A stretch of DNA of 63,043 bases from Prevotella sp. (GTDB lineage: Bacteria; Bacteroidota; Bacteroidia; Bacteroidales; Bacteroidaceae), in the NCBI GenBank assembly GCA_017475265.1, contig JAFVFY010000083.1, positions 1-63,043 of the forward strand, read 5' to 3'. The position numbers and the translations under genes are program-made. The stretch's first letter is position 1. Each line of letters begins with the position of its first letter. Below the pieces are notes generated by a model. The model searched no databases and had not been told where the DNA came from. It worked only from the letters and a program-made list of their open reading frames with translations. This document shows, piece after piece, positions 3,084 to 47,093 of the stretch.

Positions 3084-4613
3084 ATGAATAGAATACATAC
3101 GGGTTTATCATTTATTATTTATTGTTTATTATTTAGCAGCGCAGCTGCGCTATTGACTGCCTGCGAACCCAAGATACCGCAGAATTACTGGGAGAAAGAC
3201 GAACTGCCCAACATCTATCCCGACTACGCCAACGTCACGGTGCCTGTCAACATCGCACCGCTGACCTTCCAGATGGACGACAAGGTCGATAAGATGGTGG
3301 CCAGGCTGACGGCAGGCGATGAAGAAGTGGTTTACGGCGGAAACAAGGTCCAGCCGGACAAGAGCGAATGGAGCGACCTCGTACAGTCGGCGCTGAAGCT
3401 ACAGCCGTCGGCCATTACAGTAGAGGTCTTCATAGAGAACAACGACCAGTGGACGCGCTACAAGCCTTTCAGCATCTTCGTTTCGCCCGACTCCATCGAC
3501 CCCTACATCAGCTACCGACTCATTTCGCCTTCGTATGTTGTCTATGAGGATCTAACCATCAACCAGCGTTGCCTTGAGAACTATGACGAGAGTGTGATCT
3601 ACGACAACATGCTCTGTTCGGAGGACACGAAGGGACAGTGTATCAACTGTCACAACTACCAGCAGTACAACCCTGACAGGATGCAGTTCCATGCCCGTGA
3701 GAACCTTGGAGGAACCATCATAGCCTACGATGGAACCATCAAGAAGGTTAACATGAGGAACGACTCCACCCTCTCGGCAGGCGTCTACCCGACGTGGCAT
3801 CCCTGGCTTCCGTACATCGTCTATTCCACCAACCTCACGGCACAATCGTTCCATACCGTCGACCCCAACAAGATTGAGGTGTTCGACAGTCAGAGCGACC
3901 TCATTGCCTACGACGTGGAAAAGAACGAGGTGACGAACATCGTGAACGACCCTGATGAACTTGAGTGCTTCCCCTTCTGGGCTCCTGATGGCAAGACACT
4001 CTACTATTGCAGCGCCCACTTTGAGTATAAAGACACCATCGACAAAGGACAGGAGCTCATGATGCACTACGAAGATGTGAAATACAAGCTCTATAAGAAA
4101 AGCTTCGACCCGGAGACGAAAAGGTTCGGGCCGAGAGAGGCTTTGACCATTGACCATTCACCAATGGTCAATGACATGTCCGCCACCCTCCCCCGTGTCT
4201 CGCCCGACGGACGCTTCCTGATGTTTACCCTCGCGCCCTACGGCATCTTCCACATCTGGCATCACGAGGCCGACCTCTGGATGCTTGACCTGCAGACAGG
4301 CGAGGTCCGCAACATGGAGGAAATCAACTCGCCCGATACGGAAAGCTATCATTCATGGTCGAGCAATGGCAAGTGGGTGGTGTTCAGCAGCCGCCGCTAC
4401 GATGGTAACTACACCCGTCCCTTCATTGCCCACATAGACAGCAACGGTAAGGGCAGCAAACCCTTCGAACTGCCCTCTGCCGACCCCGACTACCACCGGA
4501 AGTTCCTAAAGAGCTACAACGTCCCCGAGTTCATGCGTGGCCCAGTGACTATCAAGCCGCAACAGTTTGCCGATGCCATCAAGAAGGACGGCGAGAGTGT
4601 TAGATATAATTGA
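3084..4613 (+). CDS. Lipoprotein with CxxCH heme motif and TolB/PD40 beta-propeller
   Basis: A 509-residue protein starting at the ATG at 3084. The signal peptide is encoded by a dispersed 7-nt repeat cassette (LSFIIYCLLF) and ends in a lipobox, LLTAC, so the protein is probably anchored in the outer membrane. A single CINCH heme c attachment motif lies near residue 183. It is followed by WD40-like/PD40 blades with typical phrases (WHPWLPYIVYSTN, SPDGRFLMFTLAP, SWSSNGKWVVFSSRR). The mixture of cytochrome-like motif and TolB-like propeller occurs in a Bacteroidales family of unknown role. A CCATTGA-type repeat hairpin (4143-4175) is built into the propeller. Downstream sensor kinases follow without a terminator, so co-transcription is likely. 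Confidence 0.75.
   Translation: MNRIHTGLSFIIYCLLFSSAAALLTACEPKIPQNYWEKDELPNIYPDYANVTVPVNIAPLTFQMDDKVDKMVARLTAGDEEVVYGGNKVQPDKSEWSDLVQSALKLQPSAITVEVFIENNDQWTRYKPFSIFVSPDSIDPYISYRLISPSYVVYEDLTINQRCLENYDESVIYDNMLCSEDTKGQCINCHNYQQYNPDRMQFHARENLGGTIIAYDGTIKKVNMRNDSTLSAGVYPTWHPWLPYIVYSTNLTAQSFHTVDPNKIEVFDSQSDLIAYDVEKNEVTNIVNDPDELECFPFWAPDGKTLYYCSAHFEYKDTIDKGQELMMHYEDVKYKLYKKSFDPETKRFGPREALTIDHSPMVNDMSATLPRVSPDGRFLMFTLAPYGIFHIWHHEADLWMLDLQTGEVRNMEEINSPDTESYHSWSSNGKWVVFSSRRYDGNYTRPFIAHIDSNGKGSKPFELPSADPDYHRKFLKSYNVPEFMRGPVTIKPQQFADAIKKDGESVRYN
3104..3151 (+). repeat. Signal-peptide repeat cassette (TTTATCA array plus palindrome)
   Basis: Five heptamers (TTTATCA, TTTATTA, TTTATTG, TTTATTA, TTTAGCA) followed by AGCGCAGCTGCGCT (3138-3151), a perfect palindrome. 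Together they encode the hydrophobic core and c-region of the signal peptide. Homologous cassettes lie at 21121-21164, 24309-24347, 32454-32500 and 44242-44288. Confidence 0.85.
4143..4175 (+). repeat. In-frame 7-nt array forming a hairpin
   Basis: TTGACCA, TTGACCA, TTCACCA, then the inverted ATGGTCA; ATTGACCATT (4149-4158) and AATGGTCAAT (4163-4172) are perfect inverted repeats with a 4-base loop. In frame within the propeller gene. Confidence 0.75.
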
Positions 4614-7521: not shown

Positions 7522-10500
7522 ATGGATTCTTTCAAGACAATATTTTTTGGAGGACTCTTGCAGTGCAAGCGTCCTTCGGCCGAGCGGAGAATGAGAAGAA
7601 GCTGGTGGATTGTGGTTTTGTGCCTGCAATCTTCCATCTTCCATTTTCAATCTTCAATGTGCCACGCCAACGACTTTGGCTATACTGAGGAGCATCCGCT
7701 GGTCATTGTCAGCGACTGGGACTTCCGCCCCTTTGAGTTCGTCAACGTTGAAGGAAAGCCTGCTGGATACAACGTCAACGTGCTCAACATGATTCTCGAC
7801 CAGCTCGACATTCCCCACAAGTTTGTCATGCAGGAGTGGCACGTCGCCACAGGCATGTTCAAACGACGTGAGGCCGACCTCATACACGCCCCGTATTCAT
7901 TCTACAAAGACTCTCCCTACGTATCGACCCAGAAATTCATCAACTATTACAACCTGAAGGTGGCGCGTCGCGCCGACATGGAGCCACTCCATCAGCTTAG
8001 TGAACTACAGCCTACCGACACGTTGATGATGAAAGAGGATGGCTATGCCGCCATGATCTTTGCCGAAATGGACACGGTGCCATTCACCATGGAGTTCAGT
8101 TCACCGAAGAACGGACTGGCGGGCATCAGACAAGGCATATACAAGTACTACATCTGGGGAGAGACACCTCTAAAATATAAAATACAGGAACTCGGGCTCG
8201 ACAGCATTGCCCTCGACGAGATTGACATTCCTACCGGCGAGTTGCGCATCATCGGCTACAACGAAGAGCTCATCGACCTCATCGATGACCAGTACACACG
8301 ACTCGAACAGGCCGGCGAACTACAGAATATATACGACCACTGGTTCCACCCAGAGCGTCAGCACGACGATGAATCGCCCGTGGCGCTCTTCATTGTCGGG
8401 GGACTACTTCTCGCCACCGTCATTGTGTACTTGCTCATAAGGCTCGTAAGACAAAGGGTTCGCATGGCAGTACGCGAAAGCTCCGACCTGGGACAGATGA
8501 TGGACCAGGTGCTCAACATGGGCGACTACTTTGTGTTGGAATGGGACTTCGAAATCAACATGCTCCGCAATAAGTACGGCAACATGCTACCTGATGGCGG
8601 AATGAGGCCGGAAGATTTCCTCAAACACATGCCACAGGAAGAGGCAACGCAGCTCCACAGCCTCAACGCACAACTCGCCACCGGCGTCATCAGCCACTTC
8701 GATTTGAGCTTTACTTTCAACCAGGGCACCCAGGAACAGCCCATCTGGAGAAACTACTATGGCAATGGCATCGGAGAAATGGAAAAATCCTCCAAACAAA
8801 CAGACGACCAATTCCCCAAACGACCACATCATTTACTATATACCATAAAAGACATTACCGAAGAGGTGAATGAAGAGCGTCGCATCACAACCAATGCCAG
8901 CAAGTATAAGAAGATGTTCGACACCAACCTCGTCGCCATGTCCTTCTACGATGCCGACGGCCACCTCCTCGACCTCAACCAAAAGATGCGGGAACTCTGC
9001 CAGCTGCCCCTCACTCAACTGGGAGGGGACGGAGAAGAGCCTGAGCAGTTCGTCCACAACACCTTGCTCTTCAGCTTCCCCAATCTCCAAGGCGTCTACC
9101 TGCCAGGTTCACGGGAGGTCATGTACGTCTGCCAACACCTCGACGAGCCACAGTTAGGACTAAACAAGTACATAGAATTTCGCATCAAGCCTGTCATTAA
9201 CGATGACGACGAGCTAGTCTACTACATCATTACCTGCCGCGACATCACCGCTGAGCGCAACATGTATCTCGAACAGCGCAAACACGACCAGCAGCTGCAA
9301 ACCGTCAACGAAGCCGTCAAACGCTACGAACAGCAACTCGGCTACCTACTGGAGGAAAGCAGCATATACATCTGGAGCTACATCCCCGCAAAGAATGTCG
9401 TCAATCTCACGCGCACCCCAGGACAGACAGAATTCACTGAGACCATAGAAGAATATCTGCTCTCGGTAAACGCAGACTCGCGCCAGCAGGCTATGGCCGA
9501 GATACAGAGTGCCATGCAGCAAGGCAAGCCCTACAACACCATACTGCTCTTCGACCGCACACCACTCGACTTCAAGCCCACATGGTACGCCGTCTCCGGT
9601 ATACCCATGTTCAACAAGGACGGACAGCTTACCGAGTACTTCGGCCTGTCACGTGACATCACCGAACTCATGGATGCACAGGAGAAACTACGCATTGAGA
9701 CGGCACGCGCCAAGGACTCCGGACAACTCAAGGCTGCTTTCCTCGCCAACATGACCCACGAGATACGCACGCCACTCAACGCCATCGTAGGCTTCTCAGA
9801 CCTACTGCCCATGATTGAAGATGCCAGCGAGAAAAAGGAGTTCATGAGAATCATACGCAACAACTGCGACATGCTCCTCCGACTCATCAGCGACATTCTC
9901 GAAGCCTCGAACCTCAACTCTCAACTCTCAACTCTCAAACCCACTGACATAGACTTTGCCCAGGCTTTCGACGACATTTGCCAAACCCTCGAGCAGCGCG
10001 TACAAGAGCCTGGCGTCAAGTTCATCAAGGACAACCCATACAAGACTTTCAAAACACGCCTCGACAAAGGGCGCATACAGCAGGTCATCACCAACTTCGT
10101 CATCAACGCCGTCAAGTACACGAAGCAGGGACATATCAAGGTCGGGTGGAGGACCTCCCCCGACCCCTCCAAAGGAGGGGAGATTATCCCCCCATCCCCC
10201 GACCCCTCCAAAGGAGGGGAGATTATCCCCCCATCCCCCGGCCCCTCCAAAGGAGGAGAGCGTCTCGTGTCGGGACTTCCCCCCTCCTTTGGAGGGGTTG
10301 GGGGAGGTCTTTACATCTACTGTGAAGACACAGGAGCAGGAATCCCCGAGGAGAAACAAGACTCTGTCTTCGAGCGTTTTGTCAAGCTCAATGAGTTCGT
10401 ACAGGGAACAGGGCTTGGGCTCAATATCTGCAAATCAATAGCCGAGCGATGCGGTGGCAGCATCGGCGTCCACAGTAAAGGAAAAGGGAAGGGCTCCACT

Positions 10501-13307: not shown

Positions 13308-14069
13308 ATGTTGTTAAGTCATTACTACGATGGTCTTGTTGAGGCCGGCTGCGACGAGGCGGGCCGAGGATGTCTGGCAGGCAGCGTCTATGCTGCTGCC
13401 GTCATTCTGCCGCCTGACTACGAGAACGCTATGCTCAACGACTCGAAGCAGCTGACGGAGCACCGACGCTACGAGCTGCGGACGGTCATAGAGCGTGATG
13501 CCGTGGCCTGGGCCGTGGGTATCGTCACACCAGCGGAGATAGACCGCATCAACATCCTCAATGCCTCCATCTTGGCCATGCACCGCGCACTCGACGGACT
13601 GAAAGTGAGGCCAGAGGCTATCATCGTGGACGGTAACCGTTTCAAGCCCTATCGGGAACCAATAACCAATAACCGGGAACCAATAACCAATAACCGGGAA
13701 CCAATAACCAATAACCGGGAACCAATAACCAATAACCGGAAACCAATAACCAATAACCGGGAACCAATAACCAATAACCGGGAACCAATAACCAATAACC
13801 GGGAACCAATAGCCATCCCCTACACCACCATAGTAAAAGGCGACGGCAAGTACCTTTCCATTGCCGCCGCCTCTATATTGGCTAAGACTTACCGTGATGA
13901 CTACATGAACGCCCTGCACCAGGAGTATCCGCAATATGACTGGGATAAAAACAAGGGCTACCCTACCCTACGCCACCGCGAGGCTATCCGTCAGTACGGC
14001 ACCACGCCCTATCACCGCCTGAGCTATAACCTGCTAGGGACTAAGGAGCTGGAGCTGGAGTTTCTTTGA
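13308..14069 (+). CDS. rnhB: Ribonuclease HII with an in-frame tandem-repeat insertion
   Basis: A 253-residue enzyme that removes ribonucleotides and RNA primers from RNA/DNA hybrids. The catalytic acidic residues are present: CDEAGRG (Asp16, Glu17), VDGNRF (Asp108) and AKTYRDD. Without residues 116-168 it would be about 200 residues, the normal size. That stretch is seven copies of R(E/K)PITNN plus a partial copy, encoded by a 21-nt tandem array, inserted just after the conserved VDGNRFKPY strand where other RNases HII go straight on to [13 protein letters not shown]. The fold core is intact, so the enzyme is probably active with a flexible loop. The 3' end overlaps the convergent M6 peptidase gene by 46 bases. 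Confidence 0.95.
13653..13812 (+). repeat. 21-nt in-frame tandem array (7.6 copies) inside rnhB
   Basis: The unit is CGGGAACC followed by AATAACCAATAAC, itself three heptamers. It starts at 13653 and repeats every 21 bases, with one variant unit (GGAAACC at 13737). Twenty-one is 7 codons, so gain or loss of units keeps the rnhB frame. The antisense strand is also open across it. Confidence 0.95.
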
Positions 14070-19839: not shown

Positions 19840-21195
19840 TTATTGTTTCAATGTATAAGTGGCCGTACCGCCAAGCTGCTGCAAGACGCAACCTGTAGGC
19901 TGGAAATAGTCATTGGGGGTGATAGTGTAGGTGCCACTGATTGTGGCAGCGAACTGTAGTGCCAGCTTTCCCACATCGCATTTGCTGGAGAAGTTGGTCA
20001 TGTTGCGGTCCATCTCAGCATCTTCACTGCTCTCAATAAGCATCTGTGCGAAAGACGGGACGCTGGTGCTTAGGGTAAGACCGGCAGTATTGGTCTTTGA
20101 CTTTGCAGTGTTGGTGTAGAACGTGATGACAAGTCCTTTCACCGCCCCGTTGCCAGTAGAACGTCCCAGCCCTATGGCTGCAAGTGAGTAGTTCTTACTA
20201 AACTTCTTCAGCTCGGCATCAATTTGCTCCATCAGCCCTTTCTGGGTTTCTGAGAATGTAGTCTGGTCGAAGTTCCACAGTGTATTGCGGGTATTGACGA
20301 TGTAGTTGTCCCAACAAGCGATGATACGCACTTTTCCGTCAATAGTTTGCAAACAGGTACTATCTGGAGTGAGAACAAATTCCTGGAAGGGGTCGGCACC
20401 AATAGTATCTGTGCGTTCAAAACGCAGACTGGAGGGTGTGTATAAACCTGATAGTGAGTCGTTTTTCAGTGGATCGTTGAGACGCTCGGAGTAGCGTATT
20501 CGTCCAGTAGAGAGTCCTGTAAGATAGAGCGTATCGCTGCCATTGGTGATATAGTACGAGGTGATGAGACCTCCACTGACATAGTCTTTCAGTTTTGCAC
20601 AATCGGCCAAGTATTCCTCCCACGGGCGGTCACATGGCACTAATCGGGTATGCCCACTGTAACGCTCGCCGCGCAGAAGTATCTCATCGTCGCCATACTT
20701 CATGATGACAAAGTTGTTATCACCCTGCATTCCGGCACCGTCCTTATTCAGAACACGCGGTGCCTGCCAAGGGCTGACGGGGTCTACGAAGGGTGTGAGC
20801 ACGTCGTTCCAGGTGTTGAGGGCCAGTACGGGGCCGTCCTCAAGGAGCAACTGGTAGAGGCTGGAAGATTCCGTGTACTTGCCAGCTTGGTCGTTGCGCA
20901 GGTAGCGGTGGTTGCTGGCCAGTGTCACTTTATCACCCTTCTCGAAACGGGCAAGGATGTTGAAGCCCTCGAAATGAGCCACGCCTGTACCACAGAAATA
21001 CTGCATTACCCAGCCATTCTCTGGCTTTACAAGCAGTTCTTGCACTTTCTCGTTAGTGTGCTCCACGCGCAGGGCGGCACTCTCGTCGAAAAAGTCCTCG
21101 TCCTCAAACTGACAGGAGGTCAATGCTATGCTTAACGACAAGAAACAAATGATAAATGATAAAGCCGTTGCAGGCTGTTTCCAATGTATCTTCAT
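19840..21195 (-). CDS. DUF4302 lipoprotein
   Basis: A 451-residue lipoprotein whose signal peptide LSFIICFLSLSIALTSC is encoded by a repeat cassette (21121-21164). The mature part begins with the acidic stretch after Cys typical of surface-exported Bacteroidetes lipoproteins (QFEDEDFFDES), then the pattern VQELLVKPENGWVMQYF that marks DUF4302. This family is regularly found beside SusC/SusD pairs and HExxH lipoproteins, as here. It probably sits on the outer surface and helps bind substrate; its molecular role is unknown. Confidence 0.8.
   Translation of the reverse strand: MKIHWKQPATALSFIICFLSLSIALTSCQFEDEDFFDESAALRVEHTNEKVQELLVKPENGWVMQYFCGTGVAHFEGFNILARFEKGDKVTLASNHRYLRNDQAGKYTESSSLYQLLLEDGPVLALNTWNDVLTPFVDPVSPWQAPRVLNKDGAGMQGDNNFVIMKYGDDEILLRGERYSGHTRLVPCDRPWEEYLADCAKLKDYVSGGLITSYYITNGSDTLYLTGLSTGRIRYSERLNDPLKNDSLSGLYTPSSLRFERTDTIGADPFQEFVLTPDSTCLQTIDGKVRIIACWDNYIVNTRNTLWNFDQTTFSETQKGLMEQIDAELKKFSKNYSLAAIGLGRSTGNGAVKGLVITFYTNTAKSKTNTAGLTLSTSVPSFAQMLIESSEDAEMDRNMTNFSSKCDVGKLALQFAATISGTYTITPNDYFQPTGCVLQQLGGTATYTLKQ
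21121..21164 (-). repeat. Signal-peptide repeat cassette
   Basis: On the minus strand TTTATCA, TTTATCA, TTTGTTT, CTTGTCG, TTAAGCATAGCATTG: a decayed copy of the TTTATCA array plus palindrome, giving LSFIICFLSLSIAL. Confidence 0.75.
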
Positions 21196-22603: not shown

Positions 22604-24382
22604 TTATTTTGTCGTGTAAGGGAAGTACTTCATGTTATCGTCTCCGCCCTGTAGCGAGCGCTGGTTACTTTTCTCCGGGTCGTATCCGGCATCCTTCACG
22701 TTATATGGCACCTTAAGGACTCGGCGTGGGTCATCCCAGCGCAGGAAATCGTGGGTGACATTGTAGTCCTGCGGGCCACGGTAAGCATGGTGAACAGTGA
22801 TGCCATAGCGCTTGATGTCGAACCAGCGCAGACCCTCGAACATGGTCTCTATGCGGCGGAAATGGAGTATGCAACGCAGCACAGAAAGTTCGTCGCCCTC
22901 AAGAATCTTCTCGAAGCCCATCTCTGCGGGGTGTATATCGTCCACCCAGTCACTGGTGGCCGATGTCCCTTGATAGTTCTTCCATCCGGTAATCCTTGCT
23001 AATGTCAGAGGAGTCTCTATCGCCTTAGAACTAGTCCAGTAGTCTAAGTCGCTGACAGCTTCCTGCACCCGTCCCAGATAAAGCTTAGCCTCAGCGCGGC
23101 AGAGGAGCGTCTCTTCGGCAGTGAGGGGCTGATAGATAATATGAACATAGCCGATACCAGCAATCTTGTTTGTGTATTCAAAGTACTCATATACGCGGAA
23201 AAGCCATGAGCCGTACTCCGAACCAGCACCCCAGCGGAATATCTTTCCGTCAAAGGCTGGCACGCGCCCACTCCAGTTGGGGCCGCCACCTTCGTAAAGA
23301 ACATTCTTGGTGTTGGGCACGTTGGGCACGGTACCGTAGGTAGCATCCCAATCAGCAGAAGCTGCCTCATCCAAACCTTCCGGTTTCTTGAAGTTGAATT
23401 TCTTATACCCGTCGTTGATGGCATAGCGACAAGCGGAGAGCATGCGATCCTGCAAAGAGTAGGTGGCCTGCAACAGGTAGTTGCATGATGCCGTCTCATC
23501 GTTATAGTCATTGAGCATGGTGTAAATGGTGTTGGTATTCATCGCTGCCCAATTACGCAATGACGTGGCAGGATTTCCGCCCAGTGCCATGTCAGCATAT
23601 TTCAAGCATTTCTCGTAATCGCGCTTGAAGAGGTAGAAGCGGGCGGCAAAGGCATAGGCGGCATTGTTATTAAAGTGGTAGGCAGGCACCTGATACTTCG
23701 AGTCGTCGATGAGGTCGATACCTTCCAGAAGGTCTTTCTCTATGAGGCGATAGACCTCAGAGACTTTCTTGCTGTAGATGGTATCACTATAGTCAATGTT
23801 CACCACATCCTCGACAGAGGTAACGTAGGGTATTCCCCAGTCCTGACTGCTCTTGGCCTCATCCTTATAAGCTTCAGCAAAGACGTTTACCAGCACGAAG
23901 TGGAAATAGGCACGCATGAGATGTGCCTCACCCCATGAATGTGAAATGGCAGGGTCGGTGCGTGGGTCGGTACTCATCTCCTTCATGGCCTCAATGGCAT
24001 GGTTAGCAGTAGCGATGCCATAATAGTAGCGATCCCAGATTTCGTAGGGAGTGTCATCCTCGCCGGTGCTGTAGCTCTCTACATCCTCCCACTTGTAGGC
24101 CTCCTCATGGAACAGCGAGTAGGCATCGTTGTGAGTGGCGGGCACAACGACGTTGTTGTCGACGAGGTTGTCGCCCATGAGTTCGCAGATGACTGCTGGC
24201 ACAGCCTTGGGGTAACCAGAGGTAAGCAGCTGCTGCACCTTTTTTGCATCGTCGATGTCTATCCACCGGCTGTCGGGCTGCTCGTCGAGCTTGTCGTTGC
24301 AGGAAATGAGCGCTGCGCTAAATGATAAATGACAAATGATAAATGATAAACTTATCTGCCATATCTTGCTTGTCTTAACCAT
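22604..24382 (-). CDS. SusD/RagB-family nutrient-binding lipoprotein
   Basis: A 592-residue SusD homologue that caps the SusC channel and binds substrate. The lipoprotein signal LSFIICHLSFSAALISC is encoded by a repeat cassette (24309-24347). TPR-like helices follow (AHLMRAYFHFVLVNVFAEAY, AYAFAARFYLFKRDYEKC), and the C-terminus has the usual EMGFEKILEGDELSVLRC...RRIETMFEGLRWFDIKRYG pattern. I use the ATG at 24382; the reading from 24391 starts with TTG inside a heptamer array. The ligand cannot be read from sequence; the neighbours argue for peptides or glycoproteins rather than a plain glycan. Confidence 0.95.
   Translation of the reverse strand: MVKTSKIWQISLSFIICHLSFSAALISCNDKLDEQPDSRWIDIDDAKKVQQLLTSGYPKAVPAVICELMGDNLVDNNVVVPATHNDAYSLFHEEAYKWEDVESYSTGEDDTPYEIWDRYYYGIATANHAIEAMKEMSTDPRTDPAISHSWGEAHLMRAYFHFVLVNVFAEAYKDEAKSSQDWGIPYVTSVEDVVNIDYSDTIYSKKVSEVYRLIEKDLLEGIDLIDDSKYQVPAYHFNNNAAYAFAARFYLFKRDYEKCLKYADMALGGNPATSLRNWAAMNTNTIYTMLNDYNDETASCNYLLQATYSLQDRMLSACRYAINDGYKKFNFKKPEGLDEAASADWDATYGTVPNVPNTKNVLYEGGGPNWSGRVPAFDGKIFRWGAGSEYGSWLFRVYEYFEYTNKIAGIGYVHIIYQPLTAEETLLCRAEAKLYLGRVQEAVSDLDYWTSSKAIETPLTLARITGWKNYQGTSATSDWVDDIHPAEMGFEKILEGDELSVLRCILHFRRIETMFEGLRWFDIKRYGITVHHAYRGPQDYNVTHDFLRWDDPRRVLKVPYNVKDAGYDPEKSNQRSLQGGDDNMKYFPYTTK
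24309..24347 (-). repeat. Signal-peptide repeat cassette in susD
   Basis: On the minus strand four heptamers (TTTATCA, TTTATCA, TTTGTCA, TTTATCA) run into TTT and the palindrome AGCGCAGCGCT (24309-24319). They encode LSFIICHLSFSAAL, directly before the lipobox Cys. Confidence 0.9.
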
Positions 24383-31072: not shown

Positions 31073-32527
31073 TCAGAAGCCTCCCAGGGCGGTGTAGAGG
31101 TTGATGAGGGCCTGAATGCCCTCGAAGTGGTTCTGAACCTCGGTAATCTGAGCCGTTAGTAGGTCTTCCTGTGCCTTCAGTACCTCGACGTAGGTGTTTG
31201 TGCCGTTGTTCATCAGTTCACGGGTGCCAACGTAGGCCTTGTTCAGTGCCTTGACGATGGAGGCAAGATAAGCGGCTTTCTGCTCCGTCTTCTTGCAGAT
31301 GCGAAGCTGTTGGTAGACTTCATTGCCAGCATTGAGAAGGGTCTGGACAAACTGCAGGCGGGCCTTCTCCTGGTCGATTTTAGCGTTCTTATAGCGAGCC
31401 TTCAGAAGACCTTGGGCAAAAATAGGCTGGGTGAGCGAGGCCACAGCCTGAGAGAGGAACTTGGCAGGGTTTACGATGTCATCGCCATTGCTCCAGCCTA
31501 GTGTTCCGCTCAAGGTGATGTCAGGATAGAACGACTGACGAGCTTGCTGCACGTCGTAGAAAGCAATCTCCATGTTGTGCTCTGCCTGACGGACATCGGG
31601 ACGGACTTTCAGCCAACTGAGGTGGACAACATCTCCAACAGAAGGGGCGTTGGCAGAAGAACCGCCAACCGCAGTGGAGGAGAGAGAAGGCATGACAAAT
31701 GTTCCGTAGGGCGAGCGGTCGATGGGATGGGGATGCTCTGAGAGCAACTTGCAGAGGGCACTCTCGGTGACCTGCAACGTTCCTTCCACTTCGACGATAC
31801 CCGAGAGGACGCTGGACAGTGAGGCTTCCATCTGATAGACAGCGGGACTCATATACAGGCCGGCCTCATAGAGCACGCGCATGGACTCCAGTGACTTCTC
31901 CCATACCACTTTAGTCTCTTGCAGAATCTGTAGTTCACGGTCAAGCATCACTAAATGATAATAGGTGGCGGCGACGTTGGCTGCCAGCGAGGCTTGCACG
32001 GCTTGTTTATAGTCTTCGAGCATCTGCTTGCGGGCCTTTGCCTGTCGTTTTTTGCTTTTCGACTGTCCAAAGATGTTGAGCTGCCAGGAAGCAGTAAGGG
32101 GGATGGCGTATGAACGAGTAGTTGTACTGTTGAAGCGGGTCAGCGATGCAGAGGGTTCAAACGACAGGACGGGGAGGTCGCTCAGACGTGCTGCCGTCAA
32201 GTCGTTCTGTGCCTGCTCAATGGTCAGCTGGGCCTGCTGCATGTCGGTGTTGTTCTGTAGGGCCCGCTCGATGAGCTGTTGCAGCAAAGGGTCGGTGAAG
32301 AGTTGACGCCAGCCCAAGGAGCCAAGGGAAGTCGGAGCAGCGACACTGTCGCCACATACAGGACAGGGGGCGGGGGCGCCGTGAAGTGGGCACGTAAGAG
32401 ACGCAGAGGCAGTCGAGGCCTCATAAGGATGATAGAGCGAACCGCACGACAGCAACGCCACGCTAAATGATAAATGACAAAGGATAAAGGAAAAATTCCT
32501 CAACCGTCGTTTGTTTGTAATCTTCAT
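31073..32527 (-). CDS. TolC-like outer membrane efflux lipoprotein
   Basis: A 484-residue outer membrane factor of the NodT type. Lipoprotein signal FSFILCHLSFSVALLSC is encoded by a repeat cassette (32454-32500). The two OEP repeats follow, with long helices such as NNTDMQQAQLTIEQAQNDL and KTEQKAAYLASIVKALNKAY and the conserved GYPDITLSGTLG-type strand (FYPDITLSGTLGW). It forms the exit duct of the RND pump encoded upstream on the same strand. Its stop is one base from the stop of the convergent glycosyltransferase gene, with no terminator between. Confidence 0.93.
   Translation of the reverse strand: MKITNKRRLRNFSFILCHLSFSVALLSCGSLYHPYEASTASASLTCPLHGAPAPCPVCGDSVAAPTSLGSLGWRQLFTDPLLQQLIERALQNNTDMQQAQLTIEQAQNDLTAARLSDLPVLSFEPSASLTRFNSTTTRSYAIPLTASWQLNIFGQSKSKKRQAKARKQMLEDYKQAVQASLAANVAATYYHLVMLDRELQILQETKVVWEKSLESMRVLYEAGLYMSPAVYQMEASLSSVLSGIVEVEGTLQVTESALCKLLSEHPHPIDRSPYGTFVMPSLSSTAVGGSSANAPSVGDVVHLSWLKVRPDVRQAEHNMEIAFYDVQQARQSFYPDITLSGTLGWSNGDDIVNPAKFLSQAVASLTQPIFAQGLLKARYKNAKIDQEKARLQFVQTLLNAGNEVYQQLRICKKTEQKAAYLASIVKALNKAYVGTRELMNNGTNTYVEVLKAQEDLLTAQITEVQNHFEGIQALINLYTALGGF
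32454..32500 (-). repeat. Signal-peptide repeat cassette in the TolC-like gene
   Basis: On the minus strand TTTATCC, TTTGTCA, TTTATCA, TTTAGCG, then TGGCGTT (imperfect palindrome), encoding FILCHLSFSVAL before the lipobox. Confidence 0.85.
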
Positions 32528-43400: not shown

Positions 43401-43419
43401 AAGATTTTGTTTTGGGGTT

Positions 43420-43470
43420 CTAGATTCTCTAGACTATTTAGATTTCCTAGATTCTCTAGATTTCCTAGAA
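43420..43470 (-). repeat. 9-nt array (CTAGATTCT/CTAGATTTC)
   Basis: Five to six nonamers (CTAGATTCT, CTAGACTAT, TTAGATTTC, CTAGATTCT, CTAGATTTC, CTAGAA). In sense orientation the last one gives the TAG stop of the SPOR gene. Confidence 0.85.
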
Positions 43471-44355
43471 TTGCTGGGGAGTGGTATAAACGATGATTTT
43501 TCCTTTAACGATAGTAGCAGACTCATAGCCCATCTTGCGTATGGCAATCATCTTCTCATGAGCCTCCTCGTAGGTGCGATAGTTGCCCACACGGCATACC
43601 CAGCGGGGCGAGTAGAAGCGCACATAGACATCCTCACCAGGGAAAAGCTGGCGCATGGCATTACCAGTGCGCTCGGCTTTCTGTCGGTCACTGCGAGTGT
43701 TGCCGCCGGCAAAGGCCTGAACGCGATAGCCAGTGGTCTTATAGCCGTGGCGAGGGCCAGTAGGAATGGCGATGGTGTCGCCGTCAACAGGAAGAGGAAC
43801 CTCCTGGGGTGTTGTTCTGGAAGTGTCTGCCAACGGTTTTGACTGAGTGGTATCATCCTGGGGCTTCTTCTGTTTCTCGGATTTCTCTGCCTTGAGCTTT
43901 TCGGTCTTGGGTGCCTCTGCCTTAGACTTCTCCGCGTTGGTTTTCGATGCTTTCGGCTTTGAAGTGGCTTTAGTTGGTGCAGTAGATGCTGCAGGCTTTG
44001 CCGATGTTGCCAGTTTTGCCGATGTCGCGGGCTTTACAGATGCAGATGTTGCGGGCTTTGCGGATGCCGAAGGTTTTGCCGTGGCAGCTGGTTTTGCCGT
44101 GGCAGCTGGTTTGCTGGTATTGGCAGACGGTTTGGTAGCTGTCGGTGCGGCGTTCACCAGACGGTCGATGTCAGCATCGTGGTGGATGGTGACAGTGCCC
44201 TCGCCGTTGCGGTGCTGCTGCACCTGCTGGGTGAAGGTCTGAGCCCTGACAGGGCTAAATGATAAATGATAAATGACAAATGACAAACCTATCATCATCA
44301 TTAGCCTGTTGTTAAACACTCTCATAACTTTTTTATGCATGACAATCTTTCTCAT
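43465..44355 (-). CDS. SPOR-domain protein with low-complexity linker
   Basis: A 296-residue exported protein. The signal region LSFVIYHLSFSPVRAQ is encoded by a repeat cassette (44242-44288), with several possible upstream ATGs. A Lys/Ala/Pro/Thr-rich linker about 75-175 (AATAKPAATAKPSASAKP and similar) spans to a C-terminal SPOR domain about 205-290 (YRVQAFAGGNTRSDRQKAE, YVRFYSPRWVCRVGNYRTYEEA), which binds glycan strands lacking stem peptides at division sites. The linker would reach through the periplasm. In the tpiA-folE run whose gene order is conserved in Bacteroidales. Confidence 0.88.
   Translation of the reverse strand: MRKIVMHKKVMRVFNNRLMMMIGLSFVIYHLSFSPVRAQTFTQQVQQHRNGEGTVTIHHDADIDRLVNAAPTATKPSANTSKPAATAKPAATAKPSASAKPATSASVKPATSAKLATSAKPAASTAPTKATSKPKASKTNAEKSKAEAPKTEKLKAEKSEKQKKPQDDTTQSKPLADTSRTTPQEVPLPVDGDTIAIPTGPRHGYKTTGYRVQAFAGGNTRSDRQKAERTGNAMRQLFPGEDVYVRFYSPRWVCRVGNYRTYEEAHEKMIAIRKMGYESATIVKGKIIVYTTPQQF
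44242..44288 (-). repeat. Signal-peptide repeat cassette in the SPOR gene
   Basis: On the minus strand TTTGTCA, TTTGTCA, TTTATCA, TTTATCA, TTT, then the perfect palindrome AGCCCTG-T-CAGGGCT (44242-44256). Encodes LSFVIYHLSFSPVRA, ending at the cleavage site. Confidence 0.9.
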
Positions 44356-44391
44356 TTATCTTTTATCATTTATCATTTAGTAATAGACCGT
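44356..44391 (-). repeat. AAATGAT heptamers between tpiA and the SPOR gene
   Basis: In sense direction TAAATGA, TAAATGA, TAAAAGA, TAAATGA: the stop-bearing strand of the TTTATCA family. Its last unit forms the first candidate ATG of the SPOR gene. Confidence 0.75.
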
Positions 44392-46493: not shown

Positions 46494-46556
46494 TAGCAAT
46501 AGATGCTATAGAAACTATAGGTACTATAGAAACTATAAATGCTATAGAAGCTATGG
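46494..46556 (-). repeat. 9-nt array (CTATAGAAA)
   Basis: Nonamers CTATAGAAA, CTATAGGTA, CTATAGAAA, CTATAAATG, CTATAGAAG, CTATGGTAG fill the gap. In sense the array gives the TAG stop of the DUF1599 gene. Confidence 0.85.
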
Positions 46557-47093
46557 TAGCTTTATGAGTGCGAACACTGAGTAGTTGATAATGTCCATGA
46601 GGTTGGAGTCGATACCCTCGCTGACGAGCGTCTGCCCGCCGAGGTTCTCTATCTCCTTGATGCGTTCTATCTTGGTGAGTATGAGGTCGGTATAGCTGCT
46701 CACGCGCATGTCGCGCCACGCCTCGTCATAGTCGTGGTTCTTGCGTTTCATCAGCTCCAGGGTCCCATGGGCGTGACGGTCGTAAAGCAAGAGAGCCTCG
46801 TCGGCACCGATGTCCACGGTGTCGGCGAAACCCTTCTCTAACTGTATCAGTCCCACGATGCCATAGTTTACCAGAGCCATGAACTCTGGCCTGATGCCCT
46901 CGCCGACGAGCGACTCTCCTGTGAGTTCCAGTTGGCGTATGCGCTTGGCCTTGATGAAGAGCTGGTCGGTGAGCGACGAGGGGCGCATGATGCGCCATGA
47001 GGCACGGTAGTCATGCAATTTACTCTCGAAGATGGCACGACATTCTGCCACCGCGGCTTCGAACTCTGCGTTGGTTTTCTCGAACTTGTTCAT
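46551..47093 (-). CDS. DUF1599 protein
   Basis: A 180-residue cytosolic helical protein made of two related halves: SKLHDYRASWRIMRPSSLTDQLFIKAKRIRQLE and KNHDYDEAWRDMRVSSYTDLILTKIERIKEIE, each followed by G(I/I)RPEFM- or GIDSNLM-type segments. This is the duplicated DUF1599 module of Bacteroidetes, distantly like all-alpha NTP pyrophosphatases, though no metal-binding motif is clear. First gene of an eight-gene run. Its promoter (47104-47134) leaves only ten bases before the ATG, so the transcript is nearly leaderless. The stop codon is part of a 9-nt array. Confidence 0.88.
   Translation of the reverse strand: MNKFEKTNAEFEAAVAECRAIFESKLHDYRASWRIMRPSSLTDQLFIKAKRIRQLELTGESLVGEGIRPEFMALVNYGIVGLIQLEKGFADTVDIGADEALLLYDRHAHGTLELMKRKNHDYDEAWRDMRVSSYTDLILTKIERIKEIENLGGQTLVSEGIDSNLMDIINYSVFALIKLP

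Follow-up and report, generated by a model that had tools for sequence, protein, structure and literature searches.

Direct repeats of the heptamer TAACTGA have been described upstream of start codons and overlapping the stop codons of upstream genes, and they are found in some Bacteroidetes too (MacGregor 2015, PMC4679880). Copies of this repeat located within ORFs take the reverse, stop-free orientation, in which they encode a heptapeptide repeat (PMC4679880). Rickettsia palindromic elements (RPEs), which are palindromic repeats of approximately 150 bp, reside in frame within the genes of unrelated proteins, as summarized in a review (PMC10969869). The BrickBuilt MITE of Porphyromonas gingivalis is characterized as always intergenic, and the main text of its description uses "in-frame" 0 times (PMC4596501). 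PARCELs are described as palindromic DNAs that code for protein repeats and that are scattered by transfer and shuffling (PMC2996958). Nowhere do the main texts of PMC4679880, PMC10969869, and PMC4596501 use the term "signal peptide".

The repeat examined here, from a Prevotella sp. genome, is probably an RPE- or MITE-like element that is dispersed, apparently non-autonomous, and co-opted as an export signal, where both the role in export and the mobility are inferred from sequence.

Structure of the element in the window and in related genomes

The window, meaning the whole 63,043-nucleotide stretch of DNA that was analyzed, is one (C119) of the 135 contigs that make up the 4.75-Mb host genome. 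The original prediction held that five unrelated genes of this window carry an array of TTTATCA/TTTGTCA heptamers followed by a palindrome. The array is indeed present at all five locations, and in each it lies within the signal-peptide coding region. In the gene for a PD40 beta-propeller lipoprotein (3084-4613), originally called a heme-propeller, the array and its terminal TTTA (3104-3135, plus strand) precede the hairpin GCAGC(GCA)GCTGC and a GC tail (3136-3150, plus), which code for SAAAL ahead of the lipobox LTAC. The SusD-like gene (22604-24382) carries array and TTTA at 24319-24350 (minus), followed by the mini-hairpin GC(GCA)GC and a GC tail (24310-24318, minus) that code for SAAL ahead of the lipobox LISC. 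In the SPOR-domain gene (43465-44355), array and TTTA (44256-44287, minus) are joined to the hairpin GCCCT(GTC)AGGGC with a TC tail (44241-44255, minus; SPVRAQ), and the 5′UTR contains the array once more in inverse orientation (44348-44379, plus), where it is predicted to form a long mRNA hairpin by pairing with 44256-44287. The remaining two genes have array ends of 2-bp form, which are GC(GTG)GC-GT with an altered tail (32455-32463, minus; SVAL) after the array and TTTA at 32464-32496 (minus) in the OEP (TolC-like) gene (31073-32527), and a degenerate GC(ATA)GC that ends the array at 21121-21163 (minus) in the DUF4302 gene (19840-21195). Because 2-bp stems are too short on their own, those of TolC and DUF4302 were not counted as palindromes, and this part of the prediction is clear in only three of the five genes (SusD, PD40, and SPOR).

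The five proteins belong to different Pfam families (SPOR, OEP, SusD-like, DUF4302, and PD40) and are unrelated as proposed, with the SPOR match scoring 19.9 bits, slightly below the cut-off of 21. When TTTATCATTTGTCA was sought at up to two mismatches, 14 matches (including overlapping registers of single arrays) were recovered in the window versus 0.32 expected, and none of 100 shuffles reached 14. Gene calls were made by an in-house caller, and some starts are therefore misplaced.

A general layout was derived from 108 TTTATCA-class arrays of the host genome and 12 same-genus genomes, wherein loci of the relatives were taken around pattern matches. The element, whose hairpin frequently has a GNA loop, reads (TTTATCA-like heptamer)n-TTTA-[G..C hairpin]-GC, and its 3 to 5 units, which include TTTATCA, TTTGTCA, TTTATTA, TTTGTTC, and similar heptamers, are interrupted. 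GNA triloops form very stable DNA mini-hairpins. On one strand the array is stop-free and encodes the hydrophobic heptapeptide F-I-I-Y/C-H-L-S, and it does so in all three frames because seven divided by three leaves a remainder of one. In one frame the hairpin then adds S-x-A-L-x-x-C, a lipobox, when its stem is 2 bp, or S-x-x-x-A-Q, a signal-peptidase-I-like site, when its stem is 5 bp. A-Q is a usual signal-peptidase site in this phylum. A hairpin could be parsed in 42 of 57 N-terminal copies (stems of 2 bp in 13, 3 bp in 9, 4 bp in 1, 5 bp in 18, and 7 bp in 1) and in 25 of 38 non-coding copies (4 bp in 20, 5 bp in 4, and 3 bp in 1). All but one of the 42 N-terminal hairpins share a single frame, the exception being an antisense partner.

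The stems of the hairpin covary. The pattern TTTAGCN9GCGCA, which leaves the inner 9 nt free, has 107 matches in 60 genomes, and its flanking triplets are fully complementary in 53/78 matches from the 13 array-bearing genomes and in 3/29 elsewhere (chance, 1/64). GNA loops are likewise found in 54/78 and 5/29 of these matches, respectively. Among distinct inner 9-mers, 24/49 are complementary versus a permuted mean of 4.2 and maximum of 13. With two outer stem pairs fixed by the search pattern, all 49 distinct sequences give 87.3% paired cells (slid controls, 66.9% or less) and a covariation score of 0.410 versus 0.138, a value that 0 of 500 shuffles attained and that slid controls approached only to 0.177. 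Leaving out 13 sequences from six genomes, the other 36 give 93.3% and a score of 0.498. The hairpin-encoded peptide takes 20 forms (SPAGAQ, SHAVAQ, SDVVAQ, etc.) while the stem covaries, suggesting that the palindrome is kept as the protein changes. Hairpins with GNA triloops on either strand show no genome-wide excess (75/650 versus approximately 8/64 expected), and counts for a 15-nt anchor pattern at two mismatches were not used because its 90 matches compare with 208 for a reversed-pattern control.

Copies within and beyond signal peptides

At least 29 distinct N-terminal cassettes that read as signal peptides, mostly of unrelated proteins, are present in the host genome. This number comprises 14 from an array search, the PD40 gene, and 14 new copies from a hairpin-only query, whose other hits among 18 were two repeats, one copy within acetolactate synthase, and one chance match. 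Judged by eye from the translations, the cassette N-termini display a positive n-region, a hydrophobic core, and a lipobox or A-x-A site. Twenty cassette proteins were scanned, and 17 of these fall into at least 14 kinds while 3 lack a family above the cut-off. The kinds are SPOR (under its cut-off), OEP (three proteins), SusD-like, DUF4302, PD40, Fasciclin/DUF5108, Fasciclin, GH127, OMP beta-barrel, DUF6108, LptE, DUF4876/dockerin, GldN, GH43, and DUF3108. Paralogy of the cassette proteins was ruled out by these Pfam families. Further copies were found in related species. At least 3 of the 57 copies labeled N-terminal are not signal peptides, namely L071 (in a P-type ATPase) and the antisense partners L074 minus and L114 minus, and the latter two were removed from the inverse-partner and fold counts given below.

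The element is also present in 5′UTRs, after stop codons, and inside other proteins, and thus the proposal of a portable export signal is supported with regard to co-option but does not describe all of the copies. Among hairpin-parsed copies outside N-termini, 12/35 have an opposite-strand stop codon 1 to 3 nt from the hairpin end, counting stop codons of open frames of at least 60 codons. In genus g14 the element is mostly non-coding, with one clear signal peptide among 36 copies read, and 12/29 hairpin copies in three g14 genomes lie immediately 5′ of an ATG. Heavy-metal P-type ATPases of the host genome and of G057 (L014 and L071) also contain a copy, and in these two species the same cassette peptide occupies the same membrane loop.

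Two conserved enzymes carry inserts. The hairpin GCCCC(GCA)GGGGC with its heptamer array lies antisense and in frame within acetolactate synthase (identified above its NCBIfam cut-off), adding approximately 20 residues that are absent from 10/10 aligned orthologues, an 11th being misaligned. Threonine synthase has two inserts of inverted heptamer arrays, one of which is a 36-nt inverted repeat of 89%, and both are absent from all eight aligned orthologues (3/11 were misaligned and uncounted). L321, L322, and L335 were left out of these enzyme alignments. In-frame arrays in conserved enzymes were noted at L304:9504-10943, L039:3958-5775, L298:3285-4703, and L043:14144-15472. The enzymes with such arrays are threonine synthase, acetolactate synthase, RimO, and GcvPB.

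Carriers of the element are some genomes of Prevotella and two related genera. Exact triple arrays are found in 13/60 same-genus genomes, including the host. An array followed by TTTAG is found in 12/251 genomes and 3/30 genera of the family, and across the order in 1/198 sampled genomes, which is the host itself. The original prediction allowed that the shared DNA might be inherited by descent at these genes. Orthologous loci argue otherwise at SusD, DUF4302, PD40, and SPOR, as the full TTTATCA array is missing from SusD (9 loci), DUF4302 (9 loci), and PD40 (19 loci) orthologues, and none of the 13 SPOR orthologues with a readable start has it. The nine named relatives from the SusD search are Prevotella, Prevotellaceae, or Bacteroidales MAGs that are 62 to 71% identical. 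One DUF4302 orthologue, L056, retains a two-unit stretch, and one SusD orthologue, L058, has a different heptamer array, CATTCTT, within its signal peptide. No start was readable in 5/19 SPOR orthologues, and one more was left out of the pairing test described below. Other heptamers occupy the signal peptide in 5/13 SPOR orthologues, each matching a complement in its own 5′UTR. These five are L230, L231, L236, L240, and L245.

The TTTATCA class is one among many different heptamers that form period-7 arrays throughout the host genome. Runs in the window number 26 at lag 7, 16 at lag 14, 3 at lag 9, and 0 at lags 3 to 6, 8, and 10 to 13. An 852-kb sample of the host genome has 166 period-7 runs versus 0 to 5 at periods 3 to 6, 8, 10, and 12, along with 29 at period 9 and 17 at period 11, and 400 kb of the relative G059 has 49 versus 0 to 14 at the other periods tested. 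Called genes contain 80 of the 166 runs, and 64 arrays in this sample, including those of RimO and GcvPB, lie more than 60 residues from both gene ends. In unselected samples of two genomes, 10/14 hydrophobic in-gene arrays fall within the first 40 codons, compared with 3/77 other in-gene arrays, one of these three being a TTTATCA copy whose translated stretch scored under the hydropathy line. Intergenic period-7 arrays of all classes lie 30 nt or less from a start in 39/86 (host) and 9/38 (G059) cases.

Other repeats were observed in passing. Among single-unit periods of the host genome, period 9 ranks second in number of runs, and window positions 43419-43469 and 46495-46558 hold period-9 palindromic arrays, CTAGATTTC and CTATAGAAA. 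The window also includes 7.8 copies of the 21-mer CGGGAACCAATAACCAATAAC, made of three heptamers (13653-13815), and 2.7 copies of a 39-bp tandem repeat (10156-10260). A dispersed palindrome around GGATTGCAAATCC is found at L031-L047 (C36 and C103). Three alike, MITE-like units of approximately 120 to 150 bp with a common core and inverse heptamer arms CCAATAACCAATAAACAATAACC / TGTTTATTGTTTAACGTTTATTGTT lie at L308:4734-4883, 8142-8258, and 13940-14057.

Possible origin and use of the element

In the reading we favor, the element would spread through a DNA-level process, and copies at the starts of exported proteins would be retained because they may act as signal-peptide core and cleavage region. 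Copies elsewhere would persist in 5′UTRs, after stop codons, in membrane segments, and in tolerant loops. The 7-nt unit could aid such co-option by giving the same hydrophobic heptapeptide whatever the frame. One might instead suppose that hydrophobic cores built from T-rich codons simply converge, and the translations are typical h-regions that would be favored in any case. The original prediction recognized that nucleotide likeness could reflect amino-acid composition, but the likeness survived this control. At shared residues, the fraction of identical codons is 0.791 versus 0.386 in synonymous recodings, the largest of 200 recodings reaching 0.445 (27 copies; LptE, which has no anchor, and the PD40 gene were left out). 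The hairpin also covaries, and the same DNA occupies non-coding sites. Convergence is therefore already refuted and is extremely improbable; chance or codon composition as a source of the likeness was ruled out by shuffles and by the recoding test. A different possibility is that recombination among exported genes passes the cassette exclusively between signal peptides, the non-coding repeats being a separate, related family. Non-coding stems are mostly 4 bp versus 2 to 3 or 5 bp at N-termini, which makes such recombination as possible a route as repeated recruitment, and n-regions are common to subsets of copies (e.g., KWWLI.LSFIIYHLSFS in G032). However, 5-bp stems are present in 4/25 parsed non-coding hairpins, and the acetolactate synthase copy joins hairpin and array in an antisense setting, so we regard exclusive spread of this kind as unlikely. 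Movement of the hairpins by a Y1 (HUH) transposase, as in REP/RAYT systems, would be consistent with three Y1_Tnp matches in the host genome. A short conserved 5′ flank ahead of the hairpin is reminiscent of REPs. However, Y1_Tnp is found in 35/60 genomes while arrays are found in 13/60, and G032, the richest in exact arrays of the 60 (assembly 97% complete), lacks Y1_Tnp at E≤0.001. Unless the gene is missed by that assembly, this genome rules out a RAYT as a requirement, and we consider the REP/RAYT account highly improbable.

Two regulatory uses were weighed as well. Tandem units could slip, and the arithmetic of the original prediction is correct in that a 7-nt change shifts the frame, such that gain or loss of one unit could toggle exported proteins. 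This form of phase variation is nevertheless very unlikely, given that 41/42 parsed N-terminal hairpins are in frame, that arrays have 3 to 5 units broken by TTTGTCA/TTTATTA/TTTGTTC, and that, with one assembly per species, only one of the non-coding copies (L115 minus) resembles a signal peptide, in a frame that is short and broken. Alternatively, a 5′UTR array might pair with the inverse array of the signal peptide, thereby hiding the start codon and regulating export proteins. An inverse array lies within 260 nt upstream in 16/55 N-terminal copies (18/57 with the two antisense partners), versus 0/57 downstream and 1/57 at 400 to 1400 nt upstream. Fold z scores average −2.8 with a partner (7/16 below −3) and −0.5 without (0/39), and the SPOR gene of the window has a predicted fold of −53 kcal/mol (z −5.96). 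The 5/13 SPOR orthologues whose signal-peptide heptamers match their own 5′UTRs point in the same direction, as does a pairing score of at least 10 in 6/14 own SPOR pairs (window gene included) versus 10/182 mixed pairs. However, 39/55 copies have no partner, the SusD gene of the window folds worse than its shuffles (z +2.55), and insertion of an inverted repeat would yield the same pattern without regulation. As a general account, this translational hairpin is thus quite unlikely, although it is possible on the basis of predicted folds for the 16/55 copies with an inverse partner, but not in SusD. Genome-wide complementarity between 5′UTRs and signal peptides was rejected, with 3/278 genes at a score of at least 13 (direct, 0; permuted, 0.2 per set).

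A more ambitious reading, which we find somewhat unlikely as a whole, would combine several of these features. Here a self-dispersing inverted-repeat element would carry a frame-proof signal peptide, with the core supplied by a heptamer arm and the cleavage site by the hairpin. Where both were present, its two arms would span the start codon, so that one insertion would give a 5′UTR, a start region, and an export signal under a translational hairpin, and the in-frame enzyme arrays would belong to the same invader family.

Co-option of a dispersed repeat, if correct, would show that repeat DNA is repeatedly turned into a working, portable protein part on a genome scale. The apparent signal peptides involved belong to outer-membrane, periplasmic, and lipoprotein genes that are mostly unrelated, LptE and GldN being two of them. 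This reading would explain simply why a 7-nt period, which is no multiple of 3, suits signal-peptide use, and it offers a testable route for proteins to acquire or renew their export. A broader invasion of Prevotella genes, with heptamer arrays entering in frame, is suggested as well.

Comparison with described repeat families

Such in-frame entry of heptamer arrays into Prevotella genes was not found described in the open-licence PMC literature, an absence that is weak evidence. Compared by their descriptions, the present element is like RPEs (PMC10969869) in being palindromic and in frame within unrelated genes, but it differs in having 35 to 50 bp per arm, a tandem array, and apparent recruitment as an export signal. 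PARCELs (PMC2996958) are described as 25-residue tandem domains rather than signal peptides. With MITEs such as BrickBuilt (PMC4596501), the element shares tandem repeats and the same bacterial order and may share a non-autonomous nature and an inverted-repeat layout, whereas BrickBuilt is larger and, by its description, always intergenic. Inverse arrays within 160 nt accompany 29/166 arrays of the host genome (control, 6; direct, 23) and 21/49 of G059 (control, 5; direct, 12), and most arrays lack one.

The nearest published relative is the family of TAACTGA heptamer repeats, which is one base per unit off. No exact TAACTGA pair is present in the window, and all five matches at two mismatches are TAAATGA arrays. 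Read toward starts, the unit described here is TAAATGA (also TAAACGA-like), and as far as the published account (PMC4679880) describes them, the two repeats are similar in their placement and in the reversed orientation of in-ORF copies. The element of Prevotella differs from TAACTGA repeats in that it draws on many heptamers, has an attached hairpin, and is apparently used in signal peptides.
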